The translations under genes and the position numbers were made by a program. The notes under the pieces were generated by a model. That model worked only from the letters and a program-made list of their open reading frames with translations, ran no database searches and was not told the origin of the DNA. 40,019 nucleotides of DNA, from assembly GCA_011389745.1 (NCBI GenBank), contig JAABTQ010000032.1, positions 1-40,019 on the forward strand, written 5' to 3'. Position 1 is the first letter of the stretch. Each line of letters starts with the position of its first letter. This document shows, piece by piece, positions 15,073 to 28,558 of the stretch. This DNA comes from Desulfobacteraceae bacterium. Lineage in GTDB: Bacteria > Desulfobacterota > Desulfobacteria > Desulfobacterales > SKZT01.

Positions 15073-16119
15073 GTGTCAGGTTTCAATTCAATAATCGGTC
15101 AGGAACAACCAAAGCGGTTTCTAACTATTCTTTTACAAAAGGGAATGATCCCAAACGCACTGCTTTTTACCGGGTCGGAAGGTGTGGGAAAAAAAATGGC
15201 TGCTCTTTCATTTGCAATGGCAGCAAACTGTGCAGGGAAGCATAAGTCCCCCCAGAAAAGTTCAGGTCTAAATTTTGAAGATGAGATATTCCCGACTGAG
15301 CCATGCGGTACTTGCAAAAACTGCCGGCAATTTGATTCCGGCAGTTATCCTGATTTCATACGCATAGATCCGGAAGGTCAGGTGACAAAAATTGCTCAGA
15401 TTCGAGAACTTCGTCAATTAATATCGATGAAACCCTTTGGAGCAGGACTGCGTGTCATCGTTTTAAGTAAAGCACACACCTTAAATCAGGAGGCATCAAA
15501 TGCGCTGCTCAAAGTCCTCGAAGAACCACCAAACAGGACTATTCTGATTCTCATCACTCCGAGGATATCCGATCTTCTTCCGACCATTGTGTCTCGATGT
15601 CAGCACATAAGGTTCCATCCCATTCCGGTAAAACTTTTAGCAGCTGTACTTACGCAAGAACATACAATGGATCATAAAGAAGCTGAATTTATTGCCGCAA
15701 TGGCCAATGGAAGCTTTTCCCGAGCGTTGGCATTGAAAAATACCGACTGGATTTTTCGTCGCAACTGGATAATAAAAGAAATCGAAAACATGGATACTTC
15801 CTCTGTAGCAGTCATTCTAGCTATGGCTGAAAAAATGGGTAAAAACAAAGACAAGGAGTCGACCCAGGATCTATTGGAGATGATTAAAACCTGGTATCGT
15901 GATTTAATGATTGCCAAGTATTGTCCGGATAAAATTATCAATAAAGACTTGATGGTAACTGTTCGAAATGTTTCGCAGCGGTATCATCAAAACACTTTAT
16001 TGAACCGAATATCGGCCGTTCAAAGGGCACAAAAAGAAATTGATGCCAATGTGAACACAAGGCTTGTGCTGGAAAACCTGTTCTTAACCTTGGCTGAAAC
16101 GCCCTTGGATATTGATTAA
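15073..16119 (+). CDS. holB: DNA polymerase III delta-prime subunit (clamp loader)
   Basis: A 348-residue AAA+ clamp-loader subunit. It opens with FNSIIGQEQPKRFL and has a P-loop-like GSEGVGKK (about 34-41). A zinc module is suggested by an upstream Cys (NCAGK) plus PCGTCKNC. Sensor-region motifs SNALLKVLEEPP and TIVSRCQHIRF follow, then a C-terminal helical collar. It helps load the beta sliding clamp on DNA. The start is a GTG at 15073, three bases after the HU stop, with no clear Shine-Dalgarno; coupling to the HU gene may help. The following gene, ricT, begins 4 bp after its stop. The holB-ricT neighbourhood is widespread in bacteria, which supports the identification. Confidence 0.92.
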   Translation: MSGFNSIIGQEQPKRFLTILLQKGMIPNALLFTGSEGVGKKMAALSFAMAANCAGKHKSPQKSSGLNFEDEIFPTEPCGTCKNCRQFDSGSYPDFIRIDPEGQVTKIAQIRELRQLISMKPFGAGLRVIVLSKAHTLNQEASNALLKVLEEPPNRTILILITPRISDLLPTIVSRCQHIRFHPIPVKLLAAVLTQEHTMDHKEAEFIAAMANGSFSRALALKNTDWIFRRNWIIKEIENMDTSSVAVILAMAEKMGKNKDKESTQDLLEMIKTWYRDLMIAKYCPDKIINKDLMVTVRNVSQRYHQNTLLNRISAVQRAQKEIDANVNTRLVLENLFLTLAETPLDID

Positions 16120-16123
16120 ATTT

Positions 16124-16936
16124 ATGAAAAAAGTTGGAATAAGATTTAAATCGGCTGGAAAAGTTTATGACTTTGACAGCGGTGCATTCGTTTTAAACGT
16201 TGGAGATTATGTTATCGTTGAAACAGAGCAGGGAATGAGTTTCGGATCAGTTGTCGTCCCTCCGGAACCCTATGATGATTCAAGCCTGGAAAAACCTTTT
16301 AAAAAAGTCTATCGGCTGGCTACTGCAAAAGATTTCGAGGAAATTGAAAAAAATAAAGAAAGAGAAAACATCGCTTATGCTTTCTGTTTGGAGTGTATCA
16401 GGGACCTAAAGCTTGAGATGAACCTATTCAGCGTTGAGAGCACTTTTGATGGAATCAAGTTGACTTTTTTCTTTACTGCTGATGGACGAATCGATTTTCG
16501 CCAACTGGTGAAAATGCTGGTCAGAGAGCTTGGATGCCGTATTGAAATGCGTCAGGTAGGAATCCGGAATCAGACAAAGATGACTGGCGGACTGGGGCGA
16601 TGCGGACGAAGGACTTGTTGCTCCACTTTTTTGGAAAAATTCGAACCCATTTCTATTCGCATGGCAAAGGAACAGGGCTTGTCACTTAACCCCACCAAAA
16701 TTTCAGGGCAGTGCGGACGATTAATGTGTTGTTTGACATTCGAAAATGAAACATACAGACTATTAAAAAAAGATTTTCCTAGTCCGGGAAAAACGGTTAC
16801 CACAAAACATGGCCAAGGAAAGGTAATTCGATTAAATCCCATATGCTCGCGACTTACTGTCCGTTTGGAAAGTGGCGCCGAGATGGAAATTCGGTTGGAT
16901 GAACTTTCGACAAAGCAGGAACAGGAGATACAATGA
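16124..16936 (+). CDS. ricT: RicT / PSP1-domain protein (YaaT homologue)
   Basis: A 270-residue PSP1-domain protein. The start ATG 16124 gives the typical MKKVGIRFKSAGKVYDFD opening. The C-terminal half holds two conserved cysteine clusters, GRCGRRTCCSTFLEKF and SGQCGRLMCCLTFENE, and a final KOW-like strand region with KTVTTKHGQGKVIRL. In Bacillus subtilis RicT (YaaT) works with RicA and RicF, binds Fe-S clusters and stimulates RNase Y mRNA maturation. In Gram-negative bacteria outside Firmicutes the partner set is unclear. The gene follows holB by 4 bp, and its last four bases overlap the metG start (ATGA), so the three genes are one translationally coupled unit. Confidence 0.93.
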   Translation: MKKVGIRFKSAGKVYDFDSGAFVLNVGDYVIVETEQGMSFGSVVVPPEPYDDSSLEKPFKKVYRLATAKDFEEIEKNKERENIAYAFCLECIRDLKLEMNLFSVESTFDGIKLTFFFTADGRIDFRQLVKMLVRELGCRIEMRQVGIRNQTKMTGGLGRCGRRTCCSTFLEKFEPISIRMAKEQGLSLNPTKISGQCGRLMCCLTFENETYRLLKKDFPSPGKTVTTKHGQGKVIRLNPICSRLTVRLESGAEMEIRLDELSTKQEQEIQ

Positions 16937-18873: not shown

Positions 18874-20337
18874 ATGAGTCTGATGAACAAAAATCAAGGG
18901 AAATATCCTCTTCCGGGACATATTGATATCCCGATATCTGTTCGTTTTAATCATAGCTGGCGCACCTATCAAAAGAGACTTCAGAGGAAGAACCAGCGAA
19001 AAAGCAGGGGAAAAAAGTTTTTAGGAATAATTTTAGCTATTTCTGTCATGGTATTTATTCTGTACGGTATCAGTACAAAGATCGGCGATTTATCCAAAGA
19101 ACACTCAACAAAGAAAAAAGAATCTAATGTACCGTCAGCTAAATTCATGCAGGAACATTTTGCCGGAAAAAAAGCCGTTCAAAAGTTATTGGAGGGACAT
19201 TCTTTTCTGAATCTGGATAAAAAACTTTTTCCGGTTATGGTTGGAGAAACCCGACTTTGGGTGGATACGACTTTGGATATGGATTTGCAGCAATATCTGT
19301 TAAAGATTATGAATGTTTCACATGCACGTTATATCGGCATTGTGGTCATGGAACCTGAAAGCGGTAAAATTCGCGCCATGGTCGGATATGACAAGCACGA
19401 TGATACAAATAATCCCTGTCTGAAAAGCTGTTTTCCCGCCGCAAGTATTTTTAAAATCGTAACGGCGGCAGGGGCCATCGAAAAACTCGGCATGAAAAAA
19501 GACTCCCCCCTTGTTTATAACGGTGGAAAATATACGCTTTATAAGTCTCAATTAAATGAACAGCAAAATAAATACTCTCATACGGTAACTTTCCAAAAAT
19601 CTTTTGCGGAATCAATCAATCCGATATTTGGTAAACTTGGAATATTCAAACTCAAAAAAGATTTTTTAATTTCTTATGCCGATGCTTTCGGATTCAATCA
19701 AGAGATTGACTTTGAATTACCATTACAGCCAAGCCATATTACAGTGTCTGATGAGCCTTACAATTGGGCTGAGCTGGCATCCGGCTTCAATCGAGAGACT
19801 TCTTTATCGCCTCTTCATGCCGCACTGATGATCTCTGCTGTATTAAACAATGGAAAAATACCCGAACCGGTGCTTATTGAACAAATATTCAGTGAAAATG
19901 GACAAAAACTTTATGGGAGTCATCCAGGAATGATCCAAAAAGCTGTTAAGGCTGAAACCACAGAGGTGATCCGTCAGCTGATGGAGGCTACCATAAGCTC
20001 AGGTACCAGCCGAAGAGCTTTTCAGGGTTACACAAAAGACCAGACTCTTTCCAAGCTTCAGATTGGCGGTAAAACAGGCTCTATTGATAATAAATCCCGT
20101 GATGCCCGTGTAGATTGGTTTGTTGGATTTGCCGAGGAAAAAGACGGTCGTGAAAAGATTGCTGTGTCCGTTGTGGTTGCTCATCAGGAATACATCGGTG
20201 TTCGAGCAGGTACCTATGCCCGGATGGGTATAACGTATCATTTTAAAAATTACTTTGCTCAAAAGGAAAAAATGAAGGAGCGGGCTTTAGATGATACGCT
20301 TGGGTTTAGGCAGGATTGTGATGAAAAATGTTCATAA
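18874..20337 (+). CDS. Small penicillin-binding protein, transpeptidase domain only
   Basis: A 487-residue membrane-anchored serine transpeptidase. A basic cytoplasmic N-terminus (to about 47) is followed by one membrane helix (about 48-65). The catalytic domain has the serine motif SIFK at 191-194, SIN at 247-249 and KTG at 400-402. Before the catalytic domain there are only about 120 residues, so the usual class B dimerisation module or class A glycosyltransferase is missing. Candidates are a divergent PBP2/FtsI-like enzyme, a carboxypeptidase, or a BlaR/MecR-type penicillin-binding domain; regulator partners are not seen. It lies just after metG and 48 bp before kdnA, and may share transcripts with either. 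Confidence 0.86.
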   Translation: MSLMNKNQGKYPLPGHIDIPISVRFNHSWRTYQKRLQRKNQRKSRGKKFLGIILAISVMVFILYGISTKIGDLSKEHSTKKKESNVPSAKFMQEHFAGKKAVQKLLEGHSFLNLDKKLFPVMVGETRLWVDTTLDMDLQQYLLKIMNVSHARYIGIVVMEPESGKIRAMVGYDKHDDTNNPCLKSCFPAASIFKIVTAAGAIEKLGMKKDSPLVYNGGKYTLYKSQLNEQQNKYSHTVTFQKSFAESINPIFGKLGIFKLKKDFLISYADAFGFNQEIDFELPLQPSHITVSDEPYNWAELASGFNRETSLSPLHAALMISAVLNNGKIPEPVLIEQIFSENGQKLYGSHPGMIQKAVKAETTEVIRQLMEATISSGTSRRAFQGYTKDQTLSKLQIGGKTGSIDNKSRDARVDWFVGFAEEKDGREKIAVSVVVAHQEYIGVRAGTYARMGITYHFKNYFAQKEKMKERALDDTLGFRQDCDEKCS

Positions 20338-20385: not shown

Positions 20386-21576
20386 ATGCCGGGTTTTGAA
20401 ATATTTTCAGATGAGGAACGAAAAGAGGTAAACGATGTTCTCAAAACAGGTGTCCTTTTCCGTTATGGTTTTGAGCAGGCCCGAAAAGGACACTGGAAAG
20501 CCAAAAGTTTTGAAAAAGAATTTGCAGAGCGAATCGCTGTAAAATATTGTCATCTGTGTTCAAGTGGAACTGCCGCATTGACCATCGCATTGGCTGCCTG
20601 CGGTATTGGTGCCGGTGATGAGGTCATCGTTCCGCCATTTACCTTTATTGCTACCATAGAGGCACTGCTTAACGCGGGTGCCGTACCGGTATTTTCGGAA
20701 ATCGATGAAACCCTTTGTCTGGATCCATCTGTATTGGAAAATGTTATCACACCGAGAACCCGTGCGGTCTTGCCGGTTCATATGTGTGGTTCCATGGCGA
20801 GAATCGATTCCATCAAGGTATTTTGCGATAAAAATGGTCTGGTTCTCATGGAAGATGCCTGCCAGTCCGTTGGGTCAAGCTATAAAGGAAAAGCCCTGGG
20901 CACTTTCGGTAGAATGGGGTGTTTTTCTTTTGATCCGGTAAAAACCATTACGTGCGGTGAAGGTGGTGCGGTTGTCACCAACAATGAAAACTTGTATCGA
21001 ATCGCTGAAGCTTTTTCAGATCACGGCCATGATCATATCGGAGATGATCGTGGTTTGGAGGGGCACTCCATTATCGGAGCAAATTACCGGATCAGTGAAC
21101 TCAATGCTGCCATAGGCCTTGCTCAGCTAAAAAAGCTTGATAGCATTCTGGAAAAACAACGAGCCCATAAAAAGGTTCTAAAAGATGCTTTAACCTGCTG
21201 CACAAAAATTTCTTTCCGGGAAATTCCAGATCCGGAAGGGGACTCCGCCACCTTTTTATCTTTTTTCCTTCCGGATGAACATATGACTAGAAAAGCCGCA
21301 GACCTTCTGGCTAAAGAAGGCGTGGACGGCTGTTTCTATTGGTATGATAACAACTGGCACTACATCCGACAGTGGGATCATCTTAAAAATCTCTCTTTTG
21401 CTTCTAAACCACCCATTATGCTTTCAGATAATTGCCCTGATTATTCCAAAGTGTTTTTACCCCGCTCGGATGAAATCATGGGGCGAAACATCTCAATGCT
21501 GATCAAACTTTCCTGGGGTGAAAAAGAGGTTGATCTGCGTGGACAAAAGATGGTTCGTGTGCTTAATTCCCTTTAG
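20386..21576 (+). CDS. kdnA: 8-amino-3,8-dideoxy-manno-octulosonate transaminase KdnA
   Basis: A 396-residue PLP-dependent DegT/DnrJ/EryC1-family sugar aminotransferase. The PLP lysine is K186 in PVKTITCGEGGAVVT, and EDACQSVGSSYKGKALG precedes it. The opening MPGFEIFSDEERKEV, the HMCGSMAR block, SDHGHDHIG and GCFYWYDNNWHY match my recollection of Shewanella KdnA, and the next gene is a KdnB-type oxidase. Together KdnB oxidises the C8 hydroxyl of Kdo and KdnA transaminates the aldehyde with glutamate, giving Kdo8N for the LPS inner core. A GAGG ribosome site lies 6 bases before the ATG. Other DegT enzymes make other amino sugars; the pairing with KdnB makes this assignment stronger. Confidence 0.88.
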   Translation: MPGFEIFSDEERKEVNDVLKTGVLFRYGFEQARKGHWKAKSFEKEFAERIAVKYCHLCSSGTAALTIALAACGIGAGDEVIVPPFTFIATIEALLNAGAVPVFSEIDETLCLDPSVLENVITPRTRAVLPVHMCGSMARIDSIKVFCDKNGLVLMEDACQSVGSSYKGKALGTFGRMGCFSFDPVKTITCGEGGAVVTNNENLYRIAEAFSDHGHDHIGDDRGLEGHSIIGANYRISELNAAIGLAQLKKLDSILEKQRAHKKVLKDALTCCTKISFREIPDPEGDSATFLSFFLPDEHMTRKAADLLAKEGVDGCFYWYDNNWHYIRQWDHLKNLSFASKPPIMLSDNCPDYSKVFLPRSDEIMGRNISMLIKLSWGEKEVDLRGQKMVRVLNSL

Positions 21577-21638: not shown

Positions 21639-22718
21639 ATGTTTCGTAATTTCAAAATGGTGTCGAGAGTGATTTTTGGCCAGGGATGTTTCCGTCAACT
21701 TGGAGACATTTTGCAAGCACTAAGAACACTAAATGGGTCTTTTATGGTATTTATGGTGGATGACGTTTTCAATTCATCAGAACTTGTCCCAAAAATTCCT
21801 TTTGACGACGGGGACTTGATGCTTTGGGTCAATGTCGACAAAGAACCCACCACAGAATATGTAGACACACTAACCGATAAAGTTCGTTCTTTTTCCCCAA
21901 ATCCTCCGGCCGGAATCATCGGAATCGGGGGAGGAAGCACCATGGACCTGGCAAAGGCGGTGTCTTTGATGGTAACCAACAAGGGATCTTCTGCGAACTA
22001 CCAGGGATGGGACATTGTCAAAAATCCGGGCATTTATCATGCCGGAATTCCAACATTATCCGGAACCGGTGCTGAAGTTTCAAGGACTACGGTACTTTGC
22101 GGTCCCGATAAAAAGCTTGGAATCAACTCCGATCATACTGTTTTTGATCAAATCGTTTTAGATCCTGAGCTTATTCTGGATGCACCGGCCCAACAACGAT
22201 TCTACACGGGTATGGATTGCTATATCCATTGCATAGAATCTTTATCCGGCACATTTTTAAATGCATTTAGTAAATCCTATGGGGAAAAGGCTCTTCAATT
22301 GTGTCGGGAAGTTTTTATTAAAGATGGCCCTAAACGCGGCCTTGAAAGCGAGGAAAACCTTATGATGGCATCATACTGTGGTGGTATGAGTATTGCATAT
22401 TCTCAGGTGGGGATATGTCATGCATTATCCTATGGGTTGTCATTTGTTCTGGGAATTCACCATGGAGTCGGTAATTGCATCGCTTTTAATGTCCTGGATG
22501 AATACTACCCGGAAGGTGTCGATGAATTTCGTAAGATGATGGATATCAATCAAATACAGCTTCCTAAAAATGTGGCAGCAGAAGTCGAAACGGAAAGTCT
22601 CGAAAGAATGATCAATGTTTCGCTTGTGCTGGAGCCGCTTTGGGAAAACGCTCTGGGAAAAAAATGGAAAGCCATGATGACCCGGGCAAAAATTAAGGAA
22701 CTCTACCAAAGGATGTAG
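21639..22718 (+). CDS. kdnB: 3-deoxy-manno-octulosonate 8-oxidase KdnB (iron-containing alcohol dehydrogenase family)
   Basis: A 359-residue group III iron-dependent alcohol dehydrogenase. The nucleotide-binding glycine motif is GIGGGSTMDLAKAV, followed by PTLSGTGAEVSRT. Metal ligands are expected in GMDCYIHCIES (Asp and His) and in the SYGLSFVLGIHHGVGN region (His residues). In Shewanella oneidensis KdnB oxidises the 8-hydroxyl of Kdo before KdnA adds the amine, and the order kdnA-kdnB here is consistent. A GAGGA ribosome site is 7 bases before the ATG. The 62-bp gap from kdnA has only a short AATG-rich sequence. The 1262-residue GlmS-like gene follows after 4 bp, so the three are likely one operon. 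The CMP-Kdo8N synthetase that would be needed downstream is not in this window. Confidence 0.87.
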   Translation: MFRNFKMVSRVIFGQGCFRQLGDILQALRTLNGSFMVFMVDDVFNSSELVPKIPFDDGDLMLWVNVDKEPTTEYVDTLTDKVRSFSPNPPAGIIGIGGGSTMDLAKAVSLMVTNKGSSANYQGWDIVKNPGIYHAGIPTLSGTGAEVSRTTVLCGPDKKLGINSDHTVFDQIVLDPELILDAPAQQRFYTGMDCYIHCIESLSGTFLNAFSKSYGEKALQLCREVFIKDGPKRGLESEENLMMASYCGGMSIAYSQVGICHALSYGLSFVLGIHHGVGNCIAFNVLDEYYPEGVDEFRKMMDINQIQLPKNVAAEVETESLERMINVSLVLEPLWENALGKKWKAMMTRAKIKELYQRM

Positions 22719-22722
22719 TCAA

Positions 22723-25700
22723 ATGCAGATGGCTTTTAACTTTCGCTTTATGATACTTTTTTTTCTTAAAAATTTTTTCCGTGGTTTTTTAAATCTGCTA
22801 AGATCAGATATTTATCTGGGAAAAGACCCTGAGAGTATACCTCAAGGAAGCATCGTGGTTTTCCCATACCTGGCAAATACCATGAATTGCGGACTTGCCG
22901 GAATTGTAGCCTTGAAATTGAAAGAAACACCGCACAATCCGATCCATGTCAACATGCTTGACCAAATGGTTGATAAAACAACATCAAGGCTGTTTGATCT
23001 ATGTCGTCAGGATTCTCTCTCCCTGTCAGAACATTATTTGGGGGGAGAAGATCATATGGGGCAACTTTTGGCGTTAGTTCGCAGCTGGAAAGTGTCCAAT
23101 GCGTTTTACCAGATTTATAACAGTGATGAAATTCAGAATAGAATATTTTCCAATGCTGCACGTTTAGCTGAAATGAGTGAACGGGAAAAAAAATGCTTAT
23201 CTGATCACATGGGATATCTCGGATCGAAAGATGTTGAAATCATGGTTGAAAGAATCGAAAAAGCCAAAGATGTGGCCTGGATTCTTCATTGGGAAATTCT
23301 CGGTAACGTGAAAAAAGTACGGAATCTTATGTCAAATCATGACAACGAACCGGGGCTGAACCGCCTTAAAGTATATAAAATGATAAATTCGGTTCTAAAC
23401 AGCCTGGATCGTCTGGAAGTCCGGGGAAGGGATTCCGCGGGAATATCTTTGATGTTTGTACTAGATGGAAGCGAGTATGAAAAATTTCAGGACGCTTTAT
23501 CGTCCGCAAAAAAATCTGACACTCTTTTGACTCAATTTAATCAACGCATTGGCAGGGATGTTCTTTTAAACAGAGATATAAGCTTGAGGAAAACAACAAA
23601 CCGCAAAGGCCTTCCTCAAACAGGACTCATCTTCACTTATAAAATCGCTTCGGAGATCGGAAGCCTTGGGGACAATATTGAGTTTTTAAGAAAGGAGATC
23701 ACCAACGATTCGATCTTAAATCTTCTAACATCTTTTTCTCATATGCATCATACGGTTTCAGCCCACACCAGGTGGGCTTCCGTAGGTGCCATTACCGAAG
23801 CCAATTGCCACCCGACAGACAACAAGTTTGTGATCACAGCTACCCAGGAATCCGGAATCATACACGCCTGCTTAAACGGTGATATCGACAACTATCACGA
23901 ACTAAAAGCTGAGTATGAGAGAAACGGAGGCAGAATTCATGACGATATAACGACCGATACCAAGATTATTCCCCTTCAGATCGAAAAATATATCTGCCAG
24001 GGTTATGATGTGCAAGAGGCCTTTCGAATGGCTGTTAACGATTTTAAAGGCTCACACGCCATTTCTATTCATACGGATATCGCGCCGGGAAAAATTTTTC
24101 TTTCTCAGAAGGGAAGCGGACAAGCCATTTTTGTGGGGTTGGCAGAAGATCATTATATGCCTGCCTCGGAGGTTTATGGCTTTGTGGAGGAAACCCAGGA
24201 TTATATCAAGCTTGACGGTGAAAAAAGCGTGGATGGAAAAAAAGTACGGGATCATGGTCAGATTTTTATCATAGATCGGGATTCCAGGGGTGGTCTTGAT
24301 GGTATCCGTGCCATGTTTTACGATGGCACCCCAATTAGCCTGACAACCAAAGACATCAAGCATACGGAAATTACCTCCAGGGATATCGACCGTCAGGATT
24401 TTTCTCATTATTTCCTAAAAGAAATTTCCGAATCTCCGGATTCGGTGGAAAAAACTCTTCTGAATCGTTGGAAAATTAGCAATGATGACAATACCAAATT
24501 CAAGGTTGTTCTTGATGAACAGGTTTTTCCCGAAAACCTCAAATCAGCATTTATTGAAAATCGGATCAGACGAATTTTAGTTGTTGGTCAGGGCACGGCC
24601 GGTATTGCAGCGATAGCCTGTGGGGACATCATTGACCATTATCTTGATGACCCACACATTCAGATAAGGGCCATGAAAGCCTCGGAACTGAGCGGTTTTA
24701 AACTTCCTGAATTCCAAGGCACTGAAACAATGGCTGATACATTGGTCATTGCAATAACCCAGTCCGGTACTACCACAGATACCAATCGGACTGTTGACAT
24801 GGTCCGTGAACGAGGTGCGCACACCATTGCCATTGTAAACCGAAGGGACTCAGATGTTACGTTCAAGGTAGATGGTGTCATGTATACGAGTAATGGCCGG
24901 GACCTGGAGATGTCAGTGGCTTCCACAAAAGCTTTTTACTCACAAATTGTGGCAGGAGTCCTTCTTGGGCTTTTTATGGCCGGATTAAAAAAACGAAGAT
25001 CTGCCGAATTTATTACTGATGAAGTCAGGCAGCTTCTGCAAATTCCAGGGCATATGCGCAAAGTTCTTGCAATGAAAGATAAAATCAGGGAATCCGCCAA
25101 ACGTCTGGCTGTCACAAAAACATACTGGGCTGTTGTTGGAAGTGGTCCTAACAAGGCATCCTCCGATGAGATTCGGATCAAACTCAGTGAACTTTGTTAT
25201 AAAACCATTTCCACAGACAGTGTGGAAGACAAAAAACATATCGACCTTTCTTCGGAGCCCCTCATCCTGGTGTGTGCCGCAGGAGCCGGTGACGGCGTAA
25301 TTGGCGACCTTATCAAGGATACGGCCATCTTCAAAGCCCATAAGGCTTCACCTGTGGTGATCGCCAATGAAGGTGAAAACCGTTTTGATGCCAATGCTGA
25401 AGATGTTTTTCATGTACCCAGGGTCCGTGAACATCTTGCCCCTATCTTAAATACCCTGGTCGGACATCTGTGGGGATATTATGCGGCACTTTCCATAAAT
25501 GATGTTTCCAAATTTCTGGATGTCTTTCGCGAAAACATTCAAAAGACAATTGAAAAATTTTCTGAAAAAGGGATGGATCTCTATGAGGTCATATTGGAAA
25601 AATCTTTCAGAGAAAAAATTGGAAAATTCAATCTTGAATTCAGAAGGCAAATGGCCGACAACAGGTTTCCCACAGGTATGGGTTTAAAGGCGGCTTCGGA

Positions 25701-26511
25701 TCTTTCTCTTTTACTCAAATACCTTTCCGGGAGACTTCCCCTAACTGATTTTGAAATTGATTTTGGGATCAAAGGTACACCGTATAATATGATCAATAAA
25801 TTTTACGAATGTATCGGAAATGCAATTAACTCCATGACTAGACCTATCGATGCCATCAAACACCAGGCCAAAACCGTAACCGTTGGTACATCGCGAATCA
25901 CGGAAAAAATTGAAACCGGTATCCTGTTTGATGCACTAGCAGCCCATAAATTTACTCTGGCACAGTTAACACCAAATAATATTATCGTATTGAGAAATGT
26001 TCAGGAGATAATTTCCGCGGTCAAAGGCGCCATACTATACCGAATCAAAGGACTGGATTTGATGGGAGAAGTGACCGATAAAGCCACCATTGAGATCATC
26101 AAAAAAGAAGGGGTGTTAAAACCCATTCCTTCACGAGTTGAAAGTGACAACCGCCTGAAAGGAAGCAAGCGTATTATTGTTGAGGAAAAAAATGTCTATA
26201 TCGGCAAAGGCCGCAAAGATAACCGCAGTATTGTTGTCACTCCAATTACATCGAGTTCACATGCAAAAACAAATGTCATCGAATATTTACTTTTGTTGAA
26301 TGTTTCTTTCAAGGATGATGTTCCCCTTGCTTTCAAAATAAAGGCTTTGGGCGGTAAGTACAAACGAATCAAAAACATAGTTCAGGAAAACAGCGTACCC
26401 TGGGAAAATAAGTTAATAGAACTTGTGGACATGAAAGACCTTTTTGGAAGTTCAGCGGAAAAAATCGGTGAATATATTGTCTCACACCAGAAGCTGGCCG
26501 GGTTTAAATAA
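22723..26511 (+). CDS. Giant GlmS-like amidotransferase/SIS protein with an internal catalytic cysteine
   Basis: A 1262-residue protein. A hydrophobic N-terminal segment (about 7-27) is followed by a glutamine amidotransferase class II (Ntn) domain whose nucleophile aligns with C56 in MNCGLAGI, not at residue 2. An insertion of about 170 residues separates it from the next motifs: RGRDSAGI (about 234), AHTRW (347-351), NGD near 385 and DTKIIPLQIE. Sugar-isomerase SIS motifs then follow (RILVVGQGTAGI near 618, ITQSGTTTDT near 680, SVASTKAF near 732). A second SIS-like region (about 790-930) and a C-terminal extension of some 300 residues finish the protein. GlmS makes glucosamine-6-phosphate; this is about twice that size. 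It lies 4 bp behind kdnB, so a role in amino-sugar supply for LPS is inferred, not shown. Confidence 0.8.
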   Translation: MQMAFNFRFMILFFLKNFFRGFLNLLRSDIYLGKDPESIPQGSIVVFPYLANTMNCGLAGIVALKLKETPHNPIHVNMLDQMVDKTTSRLFDLCRQDSLSLSEHYLGGEDHMGQLLALVRSWKVSNAFYQIYNSDEIQNRIFSNAARLAEMSEREKKCLSDHMGYLGSKDVEIMVERIEKAKDVAWILHWEILGNVKKVRNLMSNHDNEPGLNRLKVYKMINSVLNSLDRLEVRGRDSAGISLMFVLDGSEYEKFQDALSSAKKSDTLLTQFNQRIGRDVLLNRDISLRKTTNRKGLPQTGLIFTYKIASEIGSLGDNIEFLRKEITNDSILNLLTSFSHMHHTVSAHTRWASVGAITEANCHPTDNKFVITATQESGIIHACLNGDIDNYHELKAEYERNGGRIHDDITTDTKIIPLQIEKYICQGYDVQEAFRMAVNDFKGSHAISIHTDIAPGKIFLSQKGSGQAIFVGLAEDHYMPASEVYGFVEETQDYIKLDGEKSVDGKKVRDHGQIFIIDRDSRGGLDGIRAMFYDGTPISLTTKDIKHTEITSRDIDRQDFSHYFLKEISESPDSVEKTLLNRWKISNDDNTKFKVVLDEQVFPENLKSAFIENRIRRILVVGQGTAGIAAIACGDIIDHYLDDPHIQIRAMKASELSGFKLPEFQGTETMADTLVIAITQSGTTTDTNRTVDMVRERGAHTIAIVNRRDSDVTFKVDGVMYTSNGRDLEMSVASTKAFYSQIVAGVLLGLFMAGLKKRRSAEFITDEVRQLLQIPGHMRKVLAMKDKIRESAKRLAVTKTYWAVVGSGPNKASSDEIRIKLSELCYKTISTDSVEDKKHIDLSSEPLILVCAAGAGDGVIGDLIKDTAIFKAHKASPVVIANEGENRFDANAEDVFHVPRVREHLAPILNTLVGHLWGYYAALSINDVSKFLDVFRENIQKTIEKFSEKGMDLYEVILEKSFREKIGKFNLEFRRQMADNRFPTGMGLKAASDLSLLLKYLSGRLPLTDFEIDFGIKGTPYNMINKFYECIGNAINSMTRPIDAIKHQAKTVTVGTSRITEKIETGILFDALAAHKFTLAQLTPNNIIVLRNVQEIISAVKGAILYRIKGLDLMGEVTDKATIEIIKKEGVLKPIPSRVESDNRLKGSKRIIVEEKNVYIGKGRKDNRSIVVTPITSSSHAKTNVIEYLLLLNVSFKDDVPLAFKIKALGGKYKRIKNIVQENSVPWENKLIELVDMKDLFGSSAEKIGEYIVSHQKLAGFK

Positions 26512-27216: not shown

Positions 27217-27520
27217 TTGATGGTTCCTTTTCTAAAAATAGGCTACTGAAATCTTAACCTGTAAACCATAAAAGGGAATAAATTTGGGACGGAAATCGAT
27301 TTCTTTATTAAGGGGATTTTCACAATCCCACCATATGCCTTGTAATTTGATATTCGTTTCCATACCATAATATCTGAATAGCGTAAACACGATAGTTGGA
27401 ACATGGTATTCCTTTGCTCTGGGGAAATGATGGGTGCCCGGCAATTGGATATACCTTGAAATCCAATTTATGATCGATTATATTTTGATTAAATTAGACA
27501 CCATATCAAGGAGTACCCTT
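27217..27520. other. Intergenic region, 304 bases: divergent promoter and a doubtful small frame
   Basis: Apart from the promoter at 27456-27484, the region holds a minus-strand open frame (27444-27232, 70 codons, TTG start) ending 15 bases before the ATG of the 78-residue gene. It contains protein-like composition (for example VPTIVFTLFRYYGMET) but no ribosome site and no recognisable homology. I treat it as non-coding or a remnant. Confidence 0.4.
27456..27484 (+). promoter_or_regulatory. Good sigma-70 promoter of the nicotinamidase-like gene
   Basis: TTGAAA (27456-27461) and TATATT (27479-27484) are spaced by exactly 17 bp, and the ATG with its AAGGAG site follows about 30 bases after the expected start point. 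This also argues for the ATG at 27521 and against an earlier in-frame start inside the promoter. Confidence 0.72.
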
Positions 27521-28558
27521 ATGAATTCAGAAGAAATACCGATACCATCGCATTACGACCCCGAAAAAGTTGGCCAGGTATGGAAGGTTAATTACGAAAA
27601 AATTGCCGGGAATGCTGAAAAATGGCAAGAAAAATATGAGCTGAAACCTTCCGGCAGTGATAAAAAAAAAATTTTATTGTTGCTTGTGGATGTTCAAAAT
27701 ACTTTTTGCACGCCCGGATTTGAACTTTTCGTAGCCGGTCGTTCTGGAATGGCTGCGGTCGAAGATAATAAAAGGCTATGTGAATTTATATACCGAAATC
27801 TTCATCGGTTGACCCAAATTTGCTATACGATGGACACCCACCAGGCAGTGCAGATTTTTCACGGTATTTTTTTGGTTGACGATCAGGGAGAGCACCCAAA
27901 ACCTTTTACCACCGTTACCGCAAAAGACATAGAAAAAGGTGTCTGGAAATTCAACAAAAAAATAAGTTCGGTACTCGGGATCGACGACCCGTCCTATGGA
28001 CAGGAATATTTGCTCCATTATACCCAAAGATTGGCGTTAAGTGGCAAGTATGATTTGACCATATGGCCATACCACGCCATGCTTGGCGGGATCGGGCACG
28101 CAGTAGTATCTTCAGTGGAAGAAGCCGTGTTTTTCCACGGAATTGCTCGAAGCACGCAGTCTGATTTTGTTATTAAAGGAAAAAATCCTTTTACGGAAAA
28201 CTATTCTGTTTTAAGTCCGGAAGTGACTTCAGATCCAAGCGGGAAAAAAATTGGTGAAAAAAATCAGGCTCTGACTGATAAGCTATTGAAACATGATGTG
28301 ATCATCATTGCCGGACAGGCCAAAAGTCATTGCGTCGCCTGGACTACCGATGATCTCTTAACGGACCTCTACGAACGTAATTCTCCAAAATTTGCTGAAA
28401 AGGTATATATTTTGGAAGACTGCACGTCACCGGTGGTTATACCTGATGTGATCGATTACACACAAAAGGCCAATGAAGCTTTTAAAAAATTTGCAGATGC
28501 AGGGATGCATATTGTCCGTTCTGCAGATTCAATGTCACGCTGGCCAGGATTTTCCTGA
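27521..28558 (+). CDS. Nicotinamidase/isochorismatase-superfamily cysteine hydrolase
   Basis: A 345-residue hydrolase. It has the triad and metal residues of the nicotinamidase branch: D57 in LLLVDVQNTFC, the metal-site pattern D105/H107/H114 in YTMDTHQAVQIFH, a WPYHAMLGG block, K219 in FVIKGKNPFTENYS, and the nucleophile C271 in AGQAKSHCVAWT. Family members of this kind hydrolyse small amides such as nicotinamide or related compounds; the substrate is not known here. It is well above the usual 180-220 residues because of an N-terminal extension of about 50 residues and extra loops between 115 and 215. The start at ATG 27521 follows AAGGAG. It appears monocistronic and converges with the MFS gene 9 bp beyond its stop. 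Confidence 0.85.
   Translation: MNSEEIPIPSHYDPEKVGQVWKVNYEKIAGNAEKWQEKYELKPSGSDKKKILLLLVDVQNTFCTPGFELFVAGRSGMAAVEDNKRLCEFIYRNLHRLTQICYTMDTHQAVQIFHGIFLVDDQGEHPKPFTTVTAKDIEKGVWKFNKKISSVLGIDDPSYGQEYLLHYTQRLALSGKYDLTIWPYHAMLGGIGHAVVSSVEEAVFFHGIARSTQSDFVIKGKNPFTENYSVLSPEVTSDPSGKKIGEKNQALTDKLLKHDVIIIAGQAKSHCVAWTTDDLLTDLYERNSPKFAEKVYILEDCTSPVVIPDVIDYTQKANEAFKKFADAGMHIVRSADSMSRWPGFS

Follow-up and report, generated by a model that had tools for sequence, protein, structure and literature searches.

A giant GlmS-like protein with a putative propeptide takes the place of canonical GlmS in a clade of Desulfobacterota

The canonical glucosamine-6-phosphate synthases (GlmS/GFAT; EC 2.6.1.16; TIGR01135; PDB 2j6h, 6r4e) consist of a class II glutaminase domain and a double SIS (isomerase) domain, and GlmS, an essential enzyme, supplies all peptidoglycan and lipid A synthesis. 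Ntn amidotransferases utilize the free alpha-amino group of the nucleophilic Cys. In PurF of the B. subtilis type and in glutamate synthase (MEROPS C44), this Cys is situated either behind a propeptide or directly after the initiator Met. PurF occurs with and without a propeptide, the removal of which exposes the catalytic Cys (PMC7056826), and the precursors of both PurF and glutamate synthase have been catalogued as self-processing (PMC5753285). The literature searched yielded no propeptide in an enzyme of the GlmS type; for sulfate reducers, the open-licence papers searched described neither a giant GlmS nor one with a propeptide.

A 40,019-nucleotide stretch of DNA from a Desulfobacteraceae bacterium, hereafter the window, encodes a GlmS-like protein of 1262 residues. 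This protein, referred to as the giant, shares with canonical GlmS/GFAT the class II glutaminase, the double SIS domain, the catalytic residues, and the C-terminal lysine loop, but it is twice as long. Its Cys lies behind an extension of approximately 50 residues, a helical insertion of approximately 145 residues follows the first strand, and a second insertion and an additional C-terminal domain render the loop of Lys603 (E. coli numbering) internal. As in PurF and glutamate synthase, the Cys of the family is located behind an extension or directly after the start; the partner domains differ, and the propeptide of the giant is putative. The giants of family code f111 (L201-L204, approximately 1140 residues) possess the same long architecture at 32-35% identity and, unlike the window protein, start with Met-Cys or GTG-Cys without an extension.

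Architecture and predicted fold of the giant

The reading frame at 22723-26511 on the forward strand contains no internal stops, and a Shine-Dalgarno-like AAAGGA lies directly upstream of its start at 22723. The features of the gene are as follows (all on the + strand).

22723..26511, +, giant GlmS-like protein, 1262 residues (intact reading frame; domain and structure matches)
22723..22887, +, N-terminal extension, residues 1-55, putative propeptide; first half a basic/amphipathic helix of variable sequence
22810..22866, +, conserved stretch of the extension, residues 30-48, family consensus VYFG(R/K)...VP..SIVFFP, with Pro48 at -8
22888..22890, +, Cys56, putative Ntn nucleophile corresponding to Cys1 of GlmS (invariant; follows the initiator Met or GTG in the extension-less relatives)
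22888..22923, +, first Ntn strand, CGLAGIVALK (from the sequence)
22924..23355, +, first helical insertion, residues about 68-211, within the glutaminase domain (AlphaFold2 model; no convincing Pfam family)
23356..24357, +, remainder of the class II glutaminase domain, with R350, W351, S353, H363, N385, G386, and D412 (1xff match, conservation)
24376..25497, +, double SIS (isomerase) domain, with Q680, S681, E816, K820, E823, and H839 (Pfam SIS, structure match, conservation)
25498..25839, +, second helical insertion, residues about 926-1039 (second half-model, Pfam scan)
25840..25896, +, loop corresponding to the C-terminal loop of GlmS, RPIDAIKHQAKTVTVGTSR, internal here and containing K1050 (E. 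coli Lys603)
25921..26508, +, additional alpha/beta domain at the C-terminus, residues about 1067-1262 (Pfam scan without a convincing match)

The original prediction, made from the sequence of the window, described an amino-sugar synthase with an internal catalytic Cys at position 56, together with class II amidotransferase and SIS motifs. The Cys is indeed internal to the intact frame, in the motif NCGLAGIV, and the motifs HTRWAS and LNGDIDNY and the RGRDSAG helix are present; in the Pfam scan, GATase_6 exceeded its cut-off and SIS was also matched. An insertion within the glutaminase domain had been predicted as well, and it exists, separating strand 1 from the RGRDSAG helix and predicted as all-helical by AlphaFold2, with a size of approximately 145 rather than about 170 residues. 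Similarly, the predicted tail of 300 residues is long but not continuous: beyond the GlmS-like core, a helical insertion before the C-terminal loop and a domain of approximately 195 residues after it form two pieces separated by the loop itself.

By sequence, the closest proteins of solved structure are human GFAT-1 and E. coli GlmS. Modelling by AlphaFold2 was performed as two half-models, residues 1-572 (pLDDT 85, pTM 0.82) and residues 540-1262 (pLDDT 83, pTM 0.65). The first half-model superposes on the GlmS glutaminase 1xff with a Z of 25.2 over 231 residues (rmsd 2.0), a match that begins only at model residue 215, while residues 52-67 around Cys56 have a pLDDT below 50. The second half-model superposes on human GFAT-1 with a Z of 41.7 over 354 residues (rmsd 2.3). 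Full-length E. coli GlmS aligns with it through to the final GlmS residue (608), matched to giant residue 1057; hence, the ordinary GlmS end is reached at approximately that position. A match of the helical insertion to the STAT3 coiled coil (Z 8.8) was of a size usual for helical bundles and was not taken as kinship. In the Pfam scan of all family members, the insertions and the tail gave chance-level matches only, such as RIG-I_C.

The active-site residues compared are strictly conserved. The counterparts of Cys1, Arg73, Trp74, Asn98, Gly99, and Asp123 in the glutaminase, and those of Ser347, Glu481, Lys485, Glu488, His504, and Lys603 in the isomerase, are identical in 149/149 sequences; we take the numbers and roles to be those of E. 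coli GlmS, aligned to the giant by sequence and structure comparison. Cys56 and Gly57 are also invariant in an alignment of 34 sequences. By predicted fold and active-site conservation, the giant is thus a divergent glucosamine-6-phosphate synthase, and the GlmS-type synthase of the original prediction is upheld by the similarity to the GlmS models, the folds, and the invariant catalytic residues. The scores against these models remain below the NCBIfam cut-offs, at 264 bits versus 381 for PRK00331 and 245.5 bits versus 418 for the TIGR01135 equivalog, and no named family covers the giant at its cut-off. Because the TIGR01135 cut-off is not reached, the protein is filed as a GlmS variant outside the canonical equivalog, and its function is one that we infer rather than transfer. 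Its chemistry is most likely that of GlmS and not a new kind.

The N-terminal extension ahead of Cys56

In the window protein the Cys occupies position 56, and in 14 of the 148 relatives it is N-terminal after the start. Among the 134 extension-bearing relatives and the window protein (n = 135), the extension is conserved towards the Cys: Pro at -8, no less invariant than the catalytic Cys, is present in all 135, Phe at -9 in 124/135, Gly at -23 in 117/135, and V, I, or L at -26 in 127/135, and position -13 holds a small residue (S/A/T). The residue at -1 varies among C, N, S, F, A, H, Y, and G. The region from -50 to -25 is basic, with a median net charge of +4. Residues 11-50 are predicted to be folded (AlphaFold2 pLDDT 76-84), followed by the low-confidence junction at residues 52-67. 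In 36 members, no ATG, GTG, or TTG exists in the 30 codons upstream of the Cys; hence, the extension must be translated.

An internal start at Met54 (MNCG) was considered and rejected as the main start, as it lacks a Shine-Dalgarno-like sequence and as relatives without a start codon near the Cys keep the extension. In addition, an Asn at position 2 would usually prevent the removal of the initiator Met, which counts against this start. The membrane association of the original prediction was not borne out, and a membrane anchor was rejected as a family trait: the best 19 residues of the weak hydrophobic segment reach a Kyte-Doolittle mean of 1.15, and only 3% of relatives exceed 1.6, so that no conserved membrane segment is present.

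The 14 extension-less members comprise ten at four separate places of the tree and the four deep-branching f111 giants. In the FastTree tree, which is approximate, the presence or absence of the extension changes five times, and four of these changes are forced by well-supported branches. In all 14, an ATG or GTG lies immediately upstream of the Cys codon, and in most of them a purine-rich, ribosome-binding-like stretch precedes the start; one (L106) has an additional in-frame start two codons farther upstream. In the comparison of 149 sequences, no residue outside the extension covaried consistently with its absence.

Because every extension-less form starts with Met-Cys or GTG-Cys, the Cys is most easily understood as one that must be N-terminal. 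Were an internal Cys workable, the distances from the start would vary; such variation is not seen, and the case for a propeptide rests chiefly on this. A removable propeptide before Cys56 is therefore the best reading of the evolutionary data, in agreement with the self-processing originally proposed, and in most members a leader of approximately 50 residues would probably be removed to activate the enzyme. In the window protein, the removal of residues 1-55 before catalysis is likely. A variable residue at -1 is unusual for the site of a dedicated protease and counts against processing as such; since this residue varies and the PurF-type relatives process themselves, the cut would most likely be autocatalytic rather than made by a protease. 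The several independent leader-less lineages, all with the Cys directly after the start, constitute a natural experiment on the long-standing question of the manner in which, and the reason for which, Ntn amidotransferases employ propeptides.

Replacement of canonical GlmS across genomes

At the level of the order, the giant is present in 55/58 genomes with one copy per genome (in G013 as two pieces), and the only one of the 58 with canonical GlmS, G007, is without the giant. In two further genomes of the order, G022 and G043 (97-98% complete), neither form was found. Among 394 genomes of the phylum, the giant was found in 50, canonical GlmS in 321, and neither in 24. Comparison of the two genome lists gave a single phylum genome with both (G226; L220, L234), so that 49 of the 50 carriers are without canonical GlmS. 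In G012, a single contig with 99% completeness, the giant is present and canonical GlmS absent. The giant thus replaces canonical GlmS at the clade level, and this replacement accounts for the apparent lack of glmS in these genomes when they are scored with the standard GlmS model.

In the source genome, a search of the 99.9% complete assembly found no canonical GlmS. GlmM is present, and GlmU is present but split by contig ends (C67/C72). In many bacteria, glmU neighbours glmS; since the assembly breaks in glmU, a canonical copy may have been missed there.

The most informative genome is G381, which bears the same genus code as the giant-bearing G398 and G025 and has 83-92% DNA identity to G398 across the locus. 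In G381, a clean deletion has removed approximately 3.6 kb between kdnB and the next gene (positions 6349-9944 of L258 in G398 versus 8653-8776 of L254 in G381), leaving a remnant of 74 codons in which the extension and FCGLAGIVS are still recognisable. An ordinary canonical GlmS of 608 residues (582.8 bits) is located elsewhere in this genome. The loss of the giant and the gain of canonical GlmS may have occurred in either order on these data; the pair comes close to a natural complementation test, though it is not an experiment. Because G381 has deleted the giant and carries an ordinary GlmS, the role of the giant is very probably that of GlmS itself.

Genomic neighbourhood and proposed role

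Upstream of the giant in the window, the following genes are situated on the same strand.

18874..20337, +, penicillin-binding protein (PBP, transpeptidase), frequent upstream neighbour (domain match, neighbourhood comparison)
20386..21576, +, KdnA (Kdo8N transaminase), optional neighbour (PDB match 5k8b)
21639..22718, +, KdnB (Kdo 8-oxidase), optional neighbour (PDB matches 3rf7, 5k8c)

The identities of KdnA and KdnB, as originally predicted, are supported by their best PDB matches: Kdo8N transaminase 5k8b (550 bits) for KdnA, and an unnamed iron alcohol dehydrogenase, 3rf7 (483 bits), and Kdo 8-oxidase 5k8c (479 bits) for KdnB. KdnB acts in Kdo8N synthesis (PMC5125639). Within the order, the conserved upstream arrangement is HolB-PSP1-MetG-PBP-(kdnA-kdnB)-giant. 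Across the 91 distinct loci that have 2.6 kb or more of upstream sequence, MetG lies upstream in 68 and PBP in 56, and kdnB adjoins the giant in 26. The neighbours are not random, but the link to kdnAB is optional, since they are adjacent in just 26/91 loci. Outside the order, none of HolB, PSP1, MetG, PBP, and kdnAB was found near the giant. The Rfam scan of the window gave nothing at the gathering score; neither a glmS ribozyme nor any other known leader RNA was thus detected.

These observations bear directly on the LPS role once proposed for the giant, that of a dedicated amino-sugar enzyme partnering KdnA and KdnB. The adjacency in the window and in 26 of the loci, with confirmed identities, speaks for it; however, most loci are without adjacent kdnAB, and in 30 of the 91 the PBP lies close upstream with no kdnAB between. 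Relatives outside the order have no kdnAB near the giant, and kdnAB persist in G381 after the deletion. Furthermore, KdnA is a PLP transaminase and needs no partner of the GlmS type. This role is accordingly very improbable. A GlmS-related synthase acting on another sugar-phosphate, with the GlmS function supplied by something else, would accord with the scores below the GlmS cut-offs and with a second GlmS-like protein of 1520 residues in the source genome, but the invariance of all E. coli isomerase residues checked, the near mutual exclusion of giant and canonical GlmS, and the fact that matches of the 1520-residue kind were listed for just a minority of genomes in the order make it improbable.

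A different alternative leaves the GlmS assignment intact and concerns the extension, which could be retained as a structural or localisation domain, the enzyme using its Cys internally or using free ammonia. The predicted fold of the extension, its basic first half (+4), and the unconserved residue at -1 are in line with retention; against it, the extension-less forms all begin exactly with Met-Cys or GTG-Cys, and the use of ammonia only is unlikely, as every glutaminase residue stays invariant. We regard retention as unlikely, though less so than the two alternatives above. The explanation preferred here, which we hold to be quite likely, is that the giant is the housekeeping GlmS of its lineage, of double size and in most members made as a precursor from which approximately 50 residues are probably removed. 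Against it count the scores below the GlmS cut-offs, the variable residue at -1, the genomes with neither enzyme, the assembly break in glmU, the low model confidence around Cys56, and the lack of a residue that covaries with the extension. On balance, we further favour a branch of Desulfobacterota in which a giant self-activating proenzyme would serve as the sole GlmS, removal of the pro-segment would precede amino-sugar and cell-wall synthesis, and the pro-segment would have been lost several times, the start shifting exactly to Met-Cys. If this holds, the clade-wide replacement by a double-length GlmS with a putative propeptide would provide the first GlmS-type proenzyme known to us.

The activity and ammonia channelling that we infer for such a housekeeping GlmS would proceed as follows. 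Residues 1-55 would be removed first, providing Cys56 with a free alpha-amino group. As the invariant residues suggest, Cys56 would hydrolyse glutamine, and the ammonia would pass to the SIS isomerase site via Trp351, the counterpart of Trp74. There, fructose-6-phosphate would be opened, aminated, and isomerised by K1050, E823, and H839, as judged from the alignment, and the resulting glucosamine-6-phosphate would feed GlmM and GlmU and, in turn, peptidoglycan and lipid A. Speculatively, the helical insertions and the C-terminal domain may regulate the enzyme, and they are candidates for a new allosteric control of amino-sugar flux.

Several further observations were made in and around these loci. 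The second GlmS-like protein of the source genome lies outside the window (L086:3115-7677; G000:C6); it starts with MCGIVGYFG, contains a SIS region and a PRNRAKSVTAG loop, scores 131 bits to the GlmS model, and is patchy in the order. Downstream of the giant, the window encodes a protein of 374 residues (27434-28558) with no Pfam match and a nicotinamidase-like NCBIfam match (PRK11609, 22 bits) far below cut-off. In L070 and L180, the open frames around the giant far exceed the protein (1948 and 1617 codons), that of L070 apparently representing a high-GC frame read-through over the upstream metG-like region. In G022, a P-type ATPase-like gene occupies the place of the giant after kdnAB. Across the order, the locus is steadily marked by the PSP1-like gene (16112-16936 in the window; L254-L258), which lies beside HolB and, in most cases, MetG.
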